From positions 1-32,358 of the forward strand of contig JAHLFR010000046.1 of NCBI GenBank assembly GCA_018883755.1: a stretch of DNA of 32,358 nucleotides. The letters run 5' to 3'. This stretch comes from Candidatus Methanocorpusculum faecipullorum (GTDB lineage: Archaea; Halobacteriota; Methanomicrobia; Methanomicrobiales; Methanocorpusculaceae). The notes below the pieces were generated by a model. The model had not been told where the DNA came from and made no database searches. It was given only the letters and a program-made list of their open reading frames with translations. Below, piece after piece: positions 26,472 to 32,358 of the stretch (position 1 is its first letter; every line of letters starts with the position of its first letter). The position numbers and the translations under genes are program-made.

Positions 26472-26729
26472 ATGGAAAAACCTCTCTACCGTTCTGCAAA
26501 CGACCGCTGGCTTGCAGGAGTCTGCGGAGGCATTGCTGAATACGCAAAAATTCCGTCAATACTTGTCAGGCTGATCTTTATTGCCCTGTGCCTTGTTCTG
26601 CTCCCGTTCTGGACCATCATTCTGATCCTGTTTTACATTGTGGCATCCTTCTATCTCCCTGAAGCACCTTCGCGAAAAACCATTGAAGATCCCAATGTTA
26701 TCGATGCAGAGTTCGAGGTAAAGGAGTAA
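26472..26729 (+). CDS. PspC domain small membrane protein
   Basis: An 85-residue protein. Residues 1-26 are MEKPLYRSANDRWLAGVCGGIAEY and following, the PspC signature (short basic start, then L-x-G-V-C-G-G-I-A). A long hydrophobic stretch at about residues 30-57 spans the membrane once or twice, and the C-terminus is acidic. PspC proteins act in membrane stress in bacteria; the archaeal role is unknown. The frame opens far upstream at 26259, but that part lies opposite the flavoredoxin gene; ATG 26472 gives the family start. The DUF5591 gene follows after 6 bases. Confidence 0.87.
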   Translation: MEKPLYRSANDRWLAGVCGGIAEYAKIPSILVRLIFIALCLVLLPFWTIILILFYIVASFYLPEAPSRKTIEDPNVIDAEFEVKE

Positions 26730-27930: not shown

Positions 27931-28722
27931 ATGCGGCCAAAAATTCTTCTCACAAACGATGACGGTGTGAACTCCGGAGGTCTGTGGGCAGCTTATGAGG
28001 CACTGTCAGCGTTTGCGGATGTGACAGTGGTAGCACCTGCTGTGCAGCAGAGTGCGGTCGGCAGATCGATCTCGATCTTTGAACCGCTCAGGATGAATGA
28101 GGTATGGATCGGTGATCGGTCAGCGTACAGTGTGGAAGGCAGACCTACTGATGCGCTGCTGCTTGGCCTTTACGGTCTGAATCTCAAACCTGATCTGGTG
28201 GTGAGCGGGATCAATCTCGGTGAAAATATTTCGTACGAATCGATCACCACCTCCGGAACGGTCGGTGCTGCGATGGAAGCCGCAAACCAGGGGGTTCCGG
28301 CACTTGCCTACTCGCTGCAGATGAGTGATCAGGGAAACAAGTTTACCGATCCGCGCTGCCACACGCAGGACTTTTCCCAGGCCAAAGAGGTTGTAGCAAA
28401 GCTGACGCGGATCTTTCTTTCATCCGGTCTTCCGAAAAACTGCCATCTGGTAAATATCAATATCCCTGCCTGCCGTATGGAGGGCTATGAGGTTACCACA
28501 CTTGGGACACGTCTGTTTGATACGTATGTGGAAAAACGAATCGATCCCCGCGGTAAGCCGTACTACTGGATAAACGGGGATGTGATTTATACGCCAGAGC
28601 CGCATTCGGATGTAACGGCGCTCCGGAACAATCGTGTGTCGGTGACCCCGCTGACGCTGGACAACACGGCCTTTGCTGCGTGTGGGGATCTCAAAAAACT
28701 GTTTGCGGATCAGGGACTCTGA
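27931..28722 (+). CDS. surE: 5'-nucleotidase SurE
   Basis: Metal-dependent phosphatase releasing phosphate from nucleoside 5'- or 3'-monophosphates. ILLTNDDGVNSGGL gives the Asp-Asp metal pair, PAVQQSAVGRSIS the second conserved loop, and LVVSGINLGENISYESITTSGTVGAAMEA the remaining metal-binding Asn and the active-site Ser/Thr region. At 263 residues it is of normal length. It begins immediately after the stop of the small Cys protein gene, and its last 13 bases overlap the end of the convergent zinc-ribbon gene. Confidence 0.96.
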   Translation: MRPKILLTNDDGVNSGGLWAAYEALSAFADVTVVAPAVQQSAVGRSISIFEPLRMNEVWIGDRSAYSVEGRPTDALLLGLYGLNLKPDLVVSGINLGENISYESITTSGTVGAAMEAANQGVPALAYSLQMSDQGNKFTDPRCHTQDFSQAKEVVAKLTRIFLSSGLPKNCHLVNINIPACRMEGYEVTTLGTRLFDTYVEKRIDPRGKPYYWINGDVIYTPEPHSDVTALRNNRVSVTPLTLDNTAFAACGDLKKLFADQGL

Positions 28723-29069
28723 TCTTCAAGCATTTCACCGCAGCAGGAACAAAACCGTGCATCAACCGGATTTTCTGCGCTGCATCCCGGGCAGATTTTT
28801 GTTTTCTTTACCTCCGCAGCCTCTGCGGGTAGTTTTTCTTCTTCTGCTTTGATATCAGTTAAGAGTACCTGCAGCTTGTCGCCGAGTTCGCCGTATTTTT
28901 CCAGACCATTTTCCTGAACTGCACGTTTTCCTATCTCGGCATATACCGCATCCGCCTCTTTTTTGAGACTGCTGATCTTTGACTGAATCTCCAGTGTTTT
29001 CACTGATTTGTTCAGGTCTTCAACGGATTTGTTGATGCCCTTCTTTAAATCACCCAGAAAATCGCCCAT
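28710..29069 (-). CDS. Coiled-coil protein with C-terminal zinc ribbon
   Basis: A 119-residue protein. Residues 1-85 are helical and charged (INKSVEDLNKSVKTLEIQSKISSLKKEADAVYAEIGKR), a likely coiled coil, and residues about 93-113 hold CPGCSAENPVDARFCSCCG, a four-Cys zinc ribbon. Such proteins are common in archaea and bacteria without known function. The TATA element at 29099-29112 supports a separate transcript. It is the first of five neighbouring zinc-ribbon genes and ends inside the surE stop region. Confidence 0.75.
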   Translation of the reverse strand: MGDFLGDLKKGINKSVEDLNKSVKTLEIQSKISSLKKEADAVYAEIGKRAVQENGLEKYGELGDKLQVLLTDIKAEEEKLPAEAAEVKKTKICPGCSAENPVDARFCSCCGEMLEDQSP

Positions 29070-29098
29070 GACTATCTTCTCTCAACTTGGGAAATCTG

Positions 29099-29112
29099 CG
29101 AATATATACTTT
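29099..29112 (-). promoter_or_regulatory. TATA element of the coiled-coil zinc-ribbon gene
   Basis: AAAAGTATATATTC on the minus strand lies about 36 bases before the ATG at 29069. Confidence 0.55.
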
Positions 29113-29183
29113 TATCTCTGTATGATCCTGATGTTCAGAACCAGTTTTGTAGAACACGAATCAAGTCTAATTCCTCTGTGGGA

Positions 29184-29199
29184 GAAAAAGGAAAAAGAG
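29184..29199 (-). terminator. T-rich terminator after the 176-residue zinc-ribbon gene
   Basis: CTCTTTTTCCTTTTTC on the minus strand begins about 5 bases after the stop and separates the two minus-strand zinc-ribbon genes. Confidence 0.45.
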
Positions 29200-29203
29200 A
29201 ATA

Positions 29204-29734
29204 TTATCTTTGCGGGATGCAGTCATCACAGAAGTACTCAACGGATGGTTCCGGCTCAAAGAGATCACCCGAGACAATTTTTCTGCCTCCTGTGGTAAAT
29301 GTTCTGCCGCAGACTTTGCACTGTTTTTCTGCTGCTTTTTCTTCGGGTGTCATCCGTGCAGTAAAGGAGAATGCAGTTGTCCTGCCGCTTTTCACCGGGA
29401 TATTTTCCTGTTCACAGACCCTTGATGCAATCCGATACGCTGCAAGTGGTGCTGCTCCCAGATCCATCAGCCAGGAGAGAAGCGTCCGCTGGAGATTCTG
29501 TGTGAGCATCCATGTGAGTTCCTCATCCCCTGATCCAAGGATCTCATCATCCATCTCCTCCGGCGAGAGCCGGTATCCGCAGAGGGGACATTTGTTTCCG
29601 ATGAGTTCCTCTTTTGCCATCTCTTCAAAGCAACTGGGGCAGATGATCTGTTTGAATCTGCTGCTGATTTCGGAGGGTGATGTGGGGTTTTCCTCTTTTT
29701 TGTTCGGGGAGTCACCGCTGCTGCCAAGTGTCAT
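29204..29734 (-). CDS. Protein with two zinc ribbons, unknown function
   Basis: A 176-residue protein with two Cys4 sites: IICPSCFEEM with KCPLCGYRL (about residues 31-55) and QCKVCGRTF with FCDDCIPQR (about 138-176). The region between has WMLTQNLQRTLLSWLMDLGAAPLAAYRIASRV, a hydrophobic-patterned helix pair rather than a clear membrane segment. The N-terminal 25 residues are polar and probably disordered. GGAGACAC about 11 bases before the ATG supports the start. I do not recognise a family. It lies between the coiled-coil zinc-ribbon gene and the divergent three-gene zinc-ribbon run. Confidence 0.65.
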   Translation of the reverse strand: MTLGSSGDSPNKKEENPTSPSEISSRFKQIICPSCFEEMAKEELIGNKCPLCGYRLSPEEMDDEILGSGDEELTWMLTQNLQRTLLSWLMDLGAAPLAAYRIASRVCEQENIPVKSGRTTAFSFTARMTPEEKAAEKQCKVCGRTFTTGGRKIVSGDLFEPEPSVEYFCDDCIPQR

Positions 29735-30053
29735 GTATGTTTTGTGTCTCCATTGTATTGTTCACGGTGGATATTCGTTGAGGTTTTCAGCCTCAGTATT
29801 TCTGTACCGCTTTTGGTACTGTTTGGGTTAGTAGTATGGCATGTGACATAATACGTCTTCTTATTGAGGATCTTTTTTTGGATTCGTCTCATCAGACATG
29901 CAGATAGTACCTTGGTACATATATCGTTATAGAGTTTATCAACATGATGTTGCTTATTGTAGATACGGTGTTTCGCATGGAATATTCCAGGTCCGTGCAT
30001 TTTAGCTACCAACAAGATTAACTCCCAGTCAGCGCCACATTATCTCTATATTC
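29735..30053. other. AT-rich divergent intergenic region between zinc-ribbon genes
   Basis: The 319 bases are more AT-rich than the neighbours. They hold two copies of a GTACC/GGTAC dyad (29804-29819 and 29907-29918), TGAGG/CCTCA (29789-29805 area), the palindrome CAACATGATGTTG (29940-29952) and ACATATATCG (29917-29925), a possible TATA element for the plus-strand genes with a leader of about 100 bases. A minus-strand frame of 94 codons (29731-30015) has no family features and overlaps the next gene's start. The layout fits a regulated promoter region. Confidence 0.4.
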
Positions 30054-30815
30054 ATGTCGCAACTCCGTTGTCCGAAGTGTGGTGCTCCGGCAATGGCAGA
30101 GCACGGAAAGCAGTACACCATCTGTGAGAACTGCGGAACCGTCATCTACATTGATCGAAGCAGCGTCATCTTTCACTACATCATGCCTTTCATCCTCGAT
30201 GAAGACAAGGCGCGTGCCGTCTTCCGTCGGTGGTGTGCGGGTCCCTCGCTTGCAAAGGATCTTGAACGGGAAGCACAGATTACCTCAGTTGAAAAAATAT
30301 ACTTCCCGGTCTTTCTTTTCCGCCGCGTTGTTGATGGTCAGGAGAAGTCCATCATTAAACCCGCCAAAGGAACAACGCTGCCCGGTCTTCAGAGTCAGGT
30401 AATCCCGCCGGGAGATATTCAGGTGTTTGACTCTACCGTCTCCACTGCGGGTGCTGAGGTAATTCATCCGGAGATCAGCGTTGAGACGTATCTCTCGGAT
30501 CTTCCAGGCACTGCAAAGGAACAGGCCCTGCTTTATCTGCCGTTCTTCGTCTTCCGCTACCGGTATCAGGGAGTCGAGTACATCTCCGTCATGGGAGGGA
30601 CATCCGGACGTGTTCATACGTCCGGGTTTCCCGGACGGTCCGCCGCCCCATATGCGCTTGTTGTCGGCGGCGGGTTTGGTCTGGCCTTTATCGGCGGAAT
30701 CCTCGGATTTGTTACAACACCGCTCTTCTATGTCCTTGTCTTTGCGGGGGCGGCTTTGGCTGTTCTGACGGGGCGTGCAGTGGTCCGGACTCCTGATGGA
30801 GGTGAGAGCAAATGA
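30054..30815 (+). CDS. Zinc-ribbon membrane protein 1 of a tandem family
   Basis: A 253-residue protein. Residues 6-27 hold CPKCGAP and CENCG, a zinc ribbon. A soluble region follows with FILDEDKARAVFRRWCAGPSLAKDLE and ITSVEKIYFPVFLFRR, then a second YLPFFVFRYRYQG. Two membrane helices lie near the C-terminus (about residues 200-240). The pattern of helix, then Y-F-P-x-F-x-x-R, recurs in the next gene, so the two are paralogues. Function is unknown; a membrane-bound protein with a cytoplasmic metal site is the plain reading. The ATG of the next gene overlaps its stop by 4 bases (ATGA). Confidence 0.78.
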   Translation: MSQLRCPKCGAPAMAEHGKQYTICENCGTVIYIDRSSVIFHYIMPFILDEDKARAVFRRWCAGPSLAKDLEREAQITSVEKIYFPVFLFRRVVDGQEKSIIKPAKGTTLPGLQSQVIPPGDIQVFDSTVSTAGAEVIHPEISVETYLSDLPGTAKEQALLYLPFFVFRYRYQGVEYISVMGGTSGRVHTSGFPGRSAAPYALVVGGGFGLAFIGGILGFVTTPLFYVLVFAGAALAVLTGRAVVRTPDGGESK

Positions 30816-31819
30816 GCAGTGTGCCAAAACTTCTTATCGGCCTCTCCTGCCCCGGGTGCGGCGGTACAATCGAGGTGACCGAGGGAAGCAGACTTGCGTT
30901 TTGTCCCTACTGTGGCTCGGCTCTTGCTATCACTGCTGACGATGCCGGTGTTACCCGCCTTATGTACAAAATGGAGATCACCGAGGCTGAGGCGGAGCGT
31001 TCTGCCCGTAAATGGTTCGGGGCGTTCCCGAAGGCACGTGATCTTTCCGCAACTGCGGTGATTACCGAGATCTTCCCTATGTATCTTCCGTTTTGGCGCG
31101 TTGTAGGTACTGGGAAAGGAGTGGCCTGCGGGTACTCCACCCACACTGACAAGGATGGACATACACAGAGAACCTATCATGAGGACAGCTCCGATGCGGA
31201 GTATCTCTGGAGTGTCATTGCCTGTCAGACAGGTGATCTCGGTATCGCAACACCGCCTGAGCTGAAAGGTACCCTCCTGCCGTACACCGACGGTGACATC
31301 CCAGTCTTTGAGATAACCTCCTCGCGTGATGAGGCCTATGATCAAGCAGATACCGACATTCGCATGGAAGCCCACAGGCGTGCTGCATCAGGAATTGAGA
31401 CACTCACGTTCTCCAAAACCTTCTGCATCCCCCGTGAGTTTTCGCTCCTCTATTACCCGTACTGGATTGTCCGCTACCAGTACCGCGAACGCGATTACTT
31501 TGTTGTCCTTGACGGCGTCTCGGGAGATCCTGTTTCCGGGCGTGCACCGGGAGATCAGACGTATCAGGCACTTGCCGCAGGTCTTGGTGCAGGGTTCGGA
31601 GGTCTGTTTGCGGGTCTTGGTGTTGCCTATGCTGTGTTTTCCAACTCCGAGTATGCACTTGCCGGTCTTTCCGGTCTTGTCATTGGTCTCATCCTTGTTC
31701 TTGCCGGGTACTGGATGTTCCGGTTCGGATCAGAGGTTACGGAAGGAAAGCTCACCGGAGGTGTGACATTTTCCATGAAAGGATTTGGACAGAAAACTGT
31801 CCGGGAGATTGAACGATAA
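30812..31819 (+). CDS. Zinc-ribbon membrane protein 2 of a tandem family
   Basis: A 335-residue protein with SCPGCGGTIEVTEG and FCPYCGSAL (residues about 13-36) as the zinc ribbon, then EITEAEAERSARKWFGAFPKARDLSATA and ITEIFPMYLPFWRVVG, matching the equivalent parts of the preceding protein. FSLLYYPYWIVRYQYRERDYFVVLDGVSG repeats that theme. Two Gly-rich membrane helices follow at about 248-270 and 277-300, and the C-terminus is soluble. It overlaps the preceding gene by 4 bases and is followed after 1 base by a third relative. The function is unknown. Confidence 0.78.
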   Translation: MSSVPKLLIGLSCPGCGGTIEVTEGSRLAFCPYCGSALAITADDAGVTRLMYKMEITEAEAERSARKWFGAFPKARDLSATAVITEIFPMYLPFWRVVGTGKGVACGYSTHTDKDGHTQRTYHEDSSDAEYLWSVIACQTGDLGIATPPELKGTLLPYTDGDIPVFEITSSRDEAYDQADTDIRMEAHRRAASGIETLTFSKTFCIPREFSLLYYPYWIVRYQYRERDYFVVLDGVSGDPVSGRAPGDQTYQALAAGLGAGFGGLFAGLGVAYAVFSNSEYALAGLSGLVIGLILVLAGYWMFRFGSEVTEGKLTGGVTFSMKGFGQKTVREIER

Positions 31820-31820
31820 T

Positions 31821-32358
31821 ATGGCAATGATGGTTAAACCACTCAAATGCAGCAGCTGCGGCTCACCGCTTAAGGCAAAGGAAGCGGACCTTGTGCTTTT
31901 CTGTTCTGCCTGCGGAAAAACCATGGAGTTTCTCGACAGCGACGTCGGCGAGATCTCGTTTCACATTCTTGCCCCTAACTGGGAGGATAAAGATCTCATC
32001 TATCTTCCCTTCTGGGGAATTGATGCAAATGTTGACGTTACCCATGAGGATGTTGTCGGAGGGTTCCTGCGTATCACCAAAAAACCGATGAGGGGAGTCT
32101 GTCGCTTTTATGTCTGTGCAGCTGATCTGCTCCCGAGAAAAACCAACGGATGGAACCTTGAGTTTACCCGGGAGTTCCCCAAGGCCTCCGAGATCTCTGA
32201 TTTCCGCAGTATTCCTCACATGCCTGCACTGAAGAGTTCCAAAAATGCCGAGAAGGATGCGGAGTTCCTGTTCCTGAAACATGAGATCGATCTTTCCGGA
32301 ACCCTGCAGGAGCTGGAGTACACCTTCTCCGTTGTTGGGCATGAACTGTATTATATCC
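31821..32358 (+). CDS. Zinc-ribbon protein 3 of a tandem family (3' end outside window)
   Basis: The frame is open from the ATG at 31821 to the window edge, 179 codons. Residues 10-31 hold CSSCGSP and CSACG. IYLPFWGIDANVDV (about 62-75) is the same Y-[LF]-P-[FW] element seen in the two preceding proteins. No membrane helix is reached within the window; by analogy it would be in the missing C-terminal part. It starts 1 base after the previous stop. The third gene of the run; more may follow. Confidence 0.75.
   Translation, partial: MAMMVKPLKCSSCGSPLKAKEADLVLFCSACGKTMEFLDSDVGEISFHILAPNWEDKDLIYLPFWGIDANVDVTHEDVVGGFLRITKKPMRGVCRFYVCAADLLPRKTNGWNLEFTREFPKASEISDFRSIPHMPALKSSKNAEKDAEFLFLKHEIDLSGTLQELEYTFSVVGHELYYI

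Follow-up and report, generated by a model that had tools for sequence, protein, structure and literature searches.

Among the described systems closest to the locus studied here is the Bacillus subtilis pspA-ydjGHI operon. YdjI, an SPFH protein, has no membrane anchor of its own, and its localisation, like that of PspA, depends on the membrane proteins YdjG and YdjH (PMC8581546). YdjG has been described as combining zinc ribbons, a YpeB-related domain and a transmembrane (TM) segment (PMC11237479). An SPFH scaffold is likewise encoded beside a membrane partner in the bacterial and archaeal SPFH-NfeD operons, though the partner there is NfeD and most SPFH subfamilies carry an N-terminal TM segment of their own (PMC2636767). 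Here we analyse a window of 32,358 bases, the whole of contig C39 in the 1.25-Mb, 80% complete genome of Candidatus Methanocorpusculum faecipullorum, which ends in three tandem zinc-ribbon genes, P0003, P0004 and P0005. Our analyses suggest that these genes probably encode the membrane and adaptor subunits, each with a zinc ribbon, of a complex that archaea build on an SPFH scaffold. The literature that we searched contained no description of such a module in methanogens.

A triplet of paralogous zinc-ribbon genes

P0003 (30054-30815), P0004 (30812-31819) and P0005 (31821-32358) lie on the plus strand and are packed as the initial annotation had described, with a 4-base overlap between the first two genes (30812-30815) and a 1-base gap (31820) before the third. 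P0003 (253 amino acids) consists of an N-terminal Cys4 ribbon, a soluble domain in which a Y-x-P-[FVY] half-repeat occurs twice, and two C-terminal TM helices. Its paralogue P0004 (335 amino acids) has a Cys4 ribbon, YLPFW and YYPYW half-repeats and two TM helices, so that both complete proteins bear the C-terminal membrane helices predicted for them. P0005 is cut by the contig end and retains a Cys4 ribbon and a soluble domain with YLPFW; its homologues are about 192 amino acids long in relatives and, where full length, have no TM helix (complete copies at L040:9010-9588 and L042:9010-9588). All ribbon cysteines are invariant in the P0004 family, as are three of the four in the P0005 family, where the fourth is conserved to at least 90%.

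Profile comparisons by hhalign identify the three proteins as paralogues (P0004-P0003, 99.7%; P0004-P0005, 97.4%; P0003-P0005, 97.1%), which bears out the earlier suggestion of a family expanded by duplication. The match between P0003 and P0005 lies mainly over the ribbon and the Y-x-P-F-W segment. A Pfam and NCBIfam scan of the triplet proteins covered nothing beyond the ribbon, and the ribbon matches fell below cut-off, including the top Pfam match of P0003, Zn_Ribbon_TF. Sequence searches of the PDB matched only the ribbons of P0004 and P0005 and gave P0003 a weak match to 4exr, its best non-ribbon sequence match. By structure, the top match of P0003 was YpeB (5boi, E 0.37), with 4exr again among the best, neither of them significant. 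A pattern search of the viral contig collection recovered no relative of the triplet, and a viral origin was rejected on that ground.

Linkage and co-occurrence with an SPFH gene in archaea

The initial annotation proposed a check of gene neighbourhoods and knew of no described system with this layout. The neighbourhoods reveal a conserved partner that was not visible in the window, a soluble PF13421 SPFH protein of about 400 amino acids with C-terminal zinc ribbons, of the YdjI kind. One representative (L056:12527-13711) scores 135 bits against PF13421 and contains three DZR stretches and no TM segment; the copy in the window's own genome (G000:C19:3231-4451) scores 128 bits. Pairing of triplet and SPFH genes recurs in five archaeal families (f1, f2, f14, f27 and f31), contrary to the lack of conserved linkage by which the initial annotation would have been refuted. 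Methanocorpusculum, its sister genus in f1, and f2 share the operon order P0003-P0004-P0005-4TM-D178-SPFH, where D178 is a helical protein of about 178 amino acids and 4TM a small protein with four TM helices, and families f14, f27 and f31 share the order D178-SPFH-P0003-P0004-P0005. Parts of the latter run were seen in two genomes (G089 and G316) as profile hits and not as called genes. Neither D178 nor the 4-TM protein has a Pfam match; D178 weakly matches LIMLP_15305, and a PDB sequence search for a known fold returned nothing significant for it.

Co-occurrence follows the same lines. Among 391 genomes of the phylum, 25 encode the P0004 family and 22 a full-length PF13421 protein; 21 encode both, 4 only the P0004 family, 1 only the SPFH protein and 365 neither (Fisher test 9e-30, uncorrected for phylogeny). 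Among 61 relatives the corresponding numbers are 25, 6, 0 and 30. The triplet family is kept in nearly every Methanocorpusculum genome.

Trees further match the partners one to one. Triplets of the window's type and stand-alone SPFH loci are confined to the same seven Methanocorpusculum genomes. In the P0004 tree the seven triplets group as a single clade, and so do the six intact copies of the stand-alone SPFH gene in the SPFH tree; the copy in G001 is interrupted by a stop. Two genomes contain both types of triplet, and these also contain both types of SPFH gene.

Homologues beside SPFH genes in bacteria

Plasmids of Paracoccus, Pseudorhodobacter, Comamonas, Vibrio and Tsukamurella carry PF13421-like SPFH genes with genes annotated as zinc-ribbon or hypothetical proteins immediately behind them. 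These SPFH-adjacent proteins match the P0003/P0004 profiles over both the ribbon and the soluble domain (hhalign 98.7 and 99.1, the latter for P0003; hmmsearch to 4e-24). P0005 matches the bacterial proteins over the ribbon only. Proteins annotated as "TFIIB-type zinc ribbon-containing protein", such as WP_224153207.1 from Comamonas, adjoin SPFH and have the same domain order as P0003 and P0004. Archaeal and bacterial proteins have a pattern in common: a ribbon, [IL]PF-x-I followed by W, Y-x-P-[FY]-W, a second P-x-W with Y..Y..[ND]G-x-[TS]-G, and a TM segment. In our reading, the second motif of this pattern is hairpin-like and resembles PepSY/YpeB repeats. A C-terminal TM region is present in the bacterial proteins, P0003 and P0004, and P0005 has none. 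The bacterial proteins examined differ in having two N-terminal ribbons, in ending soon after one hydrophobic stretch and in occurring singly, whereas P0003 and P0004 have one ribbon and two TM segments and belong to a set of three paralogues.

On Paracoccus plasmid pFER4 (L093:2254-6972), genes for TelA (toxic anion resistance) and a DUF2927 protein lie directly upstream of the SPFH/zinc-ribbon genes, and on a Vibrio plasmid (L097:2045-2914) a divergent TIR-domain gene lies near the pair. A Novosphingobium plasmid locus (L144:3959-8711) encodes an SPFH protein, two DUF4178 proteins, a DUF350 protein and a polyamine aminopropyltransferase, and resembles the polyamine/PspA operons described previously (PMC11237479), but without PspA. 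Locus L092 (G002:C62:1-12000) encodes a 575-amino-acid SPFH protein with many CxxC motifs; behind its gene come a multi-TM gene, three TIR-TPR genes, of which two encode C-terminal TM pairs, and a GLUG/TPR gene, an arrangement suggestive of a role in conflict or signalling.

Second copies, arrays and decayed versions

The same genome contains a second, divergent set on contig C37 (G000:C37:20106-22335, equivalent to L010:4607-6836), found in most genomes of the genus. It comprises a P0003-like gene without a ribbon and a gene for a 498-amino-acid protein that fuses P0004-like and P0005-like parts. The N-terminal ribbons of both the P0003 and the P0004 paralogue have been lost although the genes are intact. 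This natural fusion supports a physical association of the triplet proteins. In three genomes inspected, the C37 set is divergent from a group of AMP-ligase and energy-coupling factor (ECF) transporter genes.

Other versions of the locus are expanded or reduced. In a single genus, three genomes (G045, G050 and G060; loci L051, L053 and L052) have arrays of four to five tandem P0004-like genes, several of which encode four TM helices. Another genome (G310) combines a triplet-like pair with D178 and a highly divergent SPFH-like gene. In Candidatus Methanorbis basalitermitum (L043:7932-9321; G015:C8), the triplet is decayed, with internal stops, and PF13421 was not found, which fits joint loss of the two partners, with the reservation that this genome is incomplete.

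Comparison with pspA-ydjGHI and a model for the module

The archaeal module shares several features with pspA-ydjGHI. In both systems an SPFH protein with a C-terminal ribbon and no TM segment is linked to zinc-ribbon membrane proteins, and a gene for a ribbon protein with TM segments stands beside the SPFH gene in most relatives and in families f14, f27 and f31, though not in the window's genome. B. subtilis also scores with PF13421 in a control search, and the match is presumably YdjI. The systems differ in that three ribbon paralogues take the place of one ribbon protein; the archaeal operon contains D178 and the 4-TM protein, and no YdjH-like TPM protein was recognised by Pfam. The module most likely represents a variant, archaeal and without PspA, of the SPFH/zinc-ribbon membrane system described in B. 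subtilis.

Since the archaeal SPFH protein lacks a TM segment, the simplest reading is that P0003 and P0004 are anchors and P0005 a soluble adaptor. P0003 and P0004 would be held in the membrane by their C-terminal TM pairs, with the ribbon and the soluble domain on the cytoplasmic side, and P0005 would join them. By analogy with the recruitment of YdjI by YdjG and YdjH, the ribbon proteins may bring the oligomeric SPFH scaffold, here presumably the PF13421 protein encoded on contig C19 together with D178 and the small 4-TM protein, to the membrane, where it would organise or protect the membrane under envelope stress. The homology, gene order, linkage, co-occurrence, partner matching and fusion reported above are computational observations; from them we infer the physical complex, its topology, the recruitment of SPFH and the role in envelope stress. 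The earlier proposal that the three proteins are subunits of one membrane complex gains from the conserved gene order and the fusion, with the complex itself still a prediction. D178 is the obvious candidate for a putative effector. A more elaborate scheme, in which three-paralogue ribbon anchors recruit SPFH rings, D178 occupies the effector place of PspA and the fused C37 set serves as a second receptor for the same scaffold, is one that we put forward only tentatively and regard as rather doubtful.

Several observations weigh against a ribbon-anchored SPFH complex of the pspA-ydjGHI kind. P0003 and P0004 were likened to YdjG through its published description and indirect YpeB hints, and AlphaFold models built from shallow alignments reached a predicted local distance difference test (pLDDT) score of 42 for P0004 and 48 for P0003, too poor to rely on. 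PspA (PF04012) was found in 1 of 61 genomes, where the module is absent, and in none of the module-bearing genomes of the order. Any stress role there would accordingly be PspA-independent, and the analogy with envelope stress is an indirect one. The triplet of the window's genome is not linked to SPFH, the 4TM-D178-SPFH genes being on contig C19; one genome (G407) has SPFH without a triplet; and the tandem arrays of G045, G050 and G060 occur without PF13421. Such arrays, together with the seven genomes in which the triplet and SPFH lie apart, could be explained if the ribbon genes had duplicated in the service of a separate function and were only loosely associated with SPFH. We consider this unlikely given that 21 of the 22 SPFH genomes have the P0004 family, that the split affects the identical seven genomes on the triplet and SPFH sides, and that bacterial homologues are linked to SPFH as well.

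Other functions can be proposed for the ribbons themselves. The proteins might be membrane-tethered transcription regulators whose TFIIB-like ribbons would contact DNA or RNA polymerase and signal envelope state; the sub-threshold match of P0003 to Zn_Ribbon_TF and the DNA binding suggested for the YdjG ribbon (PMC9239133) are in keeping with this. Yet no helix-turn-helix or other nucleic-acid-binding domain reaches the Pfam cut-off, loss of the ribbons from the intact C37 paralogues makes nucleic-acid binding by the ribbon an unlikely core function, and the protein with which they are paired is a scaffold rather than a regulator, all of which renders a regulatory role improbable. We give similarly little credence to a vesicle or membrane-remodelling system of the type known from the endosomal sorting complex required for transport (ESCRT). 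The model here would be the Meth_adaptin loci of methanogens, which, like the module, encode an SPFH protein with zinc ribbons, there with a coiled coil as well, and a Zn-ribbon protein, there an appendage protein (PMC10936438). Those loci also hold Vps4, ESCRT-III, an adaptin appendage and GOLD domains, none of which was recognised in the module, although Vps4 was not searched for. Snf7 was found in 0 of 61 genomes with a model that was weak in controls, PspA is absent from this genome, no AAA ATPase was recognised beside the module, some of whose neighbours were unscanned, and adaptin homology was not found by sequence. A patchy distribution (25 of 391 genomes) and the TIR genes beside some PF13421 SPFH loci (L092, L097) could also indicate an anti-virus or conflict module. 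This is highly improbable, because P0003-P0005, SPFH and D178 have no PADLOC match, the family is conserved across nearly all genomes of the genus, and the pattern search of the viral contigs found no relative. The evidence as a whole favours zinc-ribbon subunits of an SPFH scaffold complex.

The adjacent zinc-ribbon genes P0001 and P0002

The initial annotation had treated every gene from 28710 to the window end as one cluster of five zinc-ribbon genes. Translations confirm a Cys4 ribbon in all five, and all five are under strong purifying selection relative to Methanocorpusculum petauri, the nearest named relative in our search (nonsynonymous rate dN 0.04-0.08, synonymous rate dS 0.87-1.2; P0004 identity 94%). 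Of the 29 genes called elsewhere in the window, only 2 show the CxxC-x8-30-CxxC pattern, so a run of five ribbon genes is not due to chance, though three of the five belong to a single duplicated family.

P0001 (28710-29069; coiled coil and zinc ribbon CPGC..CSCC) and P0002 (29204-29734; two Cys4 sets, CPSC..CPLC and CKVC..CDDC) lie on the minus strand, opposite to the triplet, and are members of other families. P0001 is genus-restricted, and most genomes carry it on another contig. Homologues of P0002 are present in 38 of 61 Methanomicrobiales genomes, the majority of which lack the triplet; within the genus, P0002 is near the triplet in G004, G017, G019 and G021, while G007 has it about 7 kb from the triplet and G015 on a different contig. 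In-frame stops of P0002 homologues were plain terminal stops in the seven inspected. The order-wide occurrence of P0002 without the triplet and the location of P0001 elsewhere in most relatives indicate that the five genes only happen to be neighbours. A single five-gene system was rejected, with P0001 and P0002 as unlinked families outside it, and the real unit is the triplet P0003-P0004-P0005.

A few genes upstream, the window encodes a PspC-domain protein (26475-26729, plus strand; PF04024, 70 bits), in a neighbourhood shared with M. petauri.

Implications for methanogen envelope biology

Archaeal Psp and envelope-stress networks have been called largely unknown, and more than half of archaeal genomes lack any Psp domain (PMC9239133). 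Proteins that formerly had no family assignment are now placed, and the pairing of an SPFH protein with a zinc-ribbon anchor recurs in both bacteria and archaea. The module provides a concrete and genetically testable candidate for a Psp-like job in methanogens without PspA.

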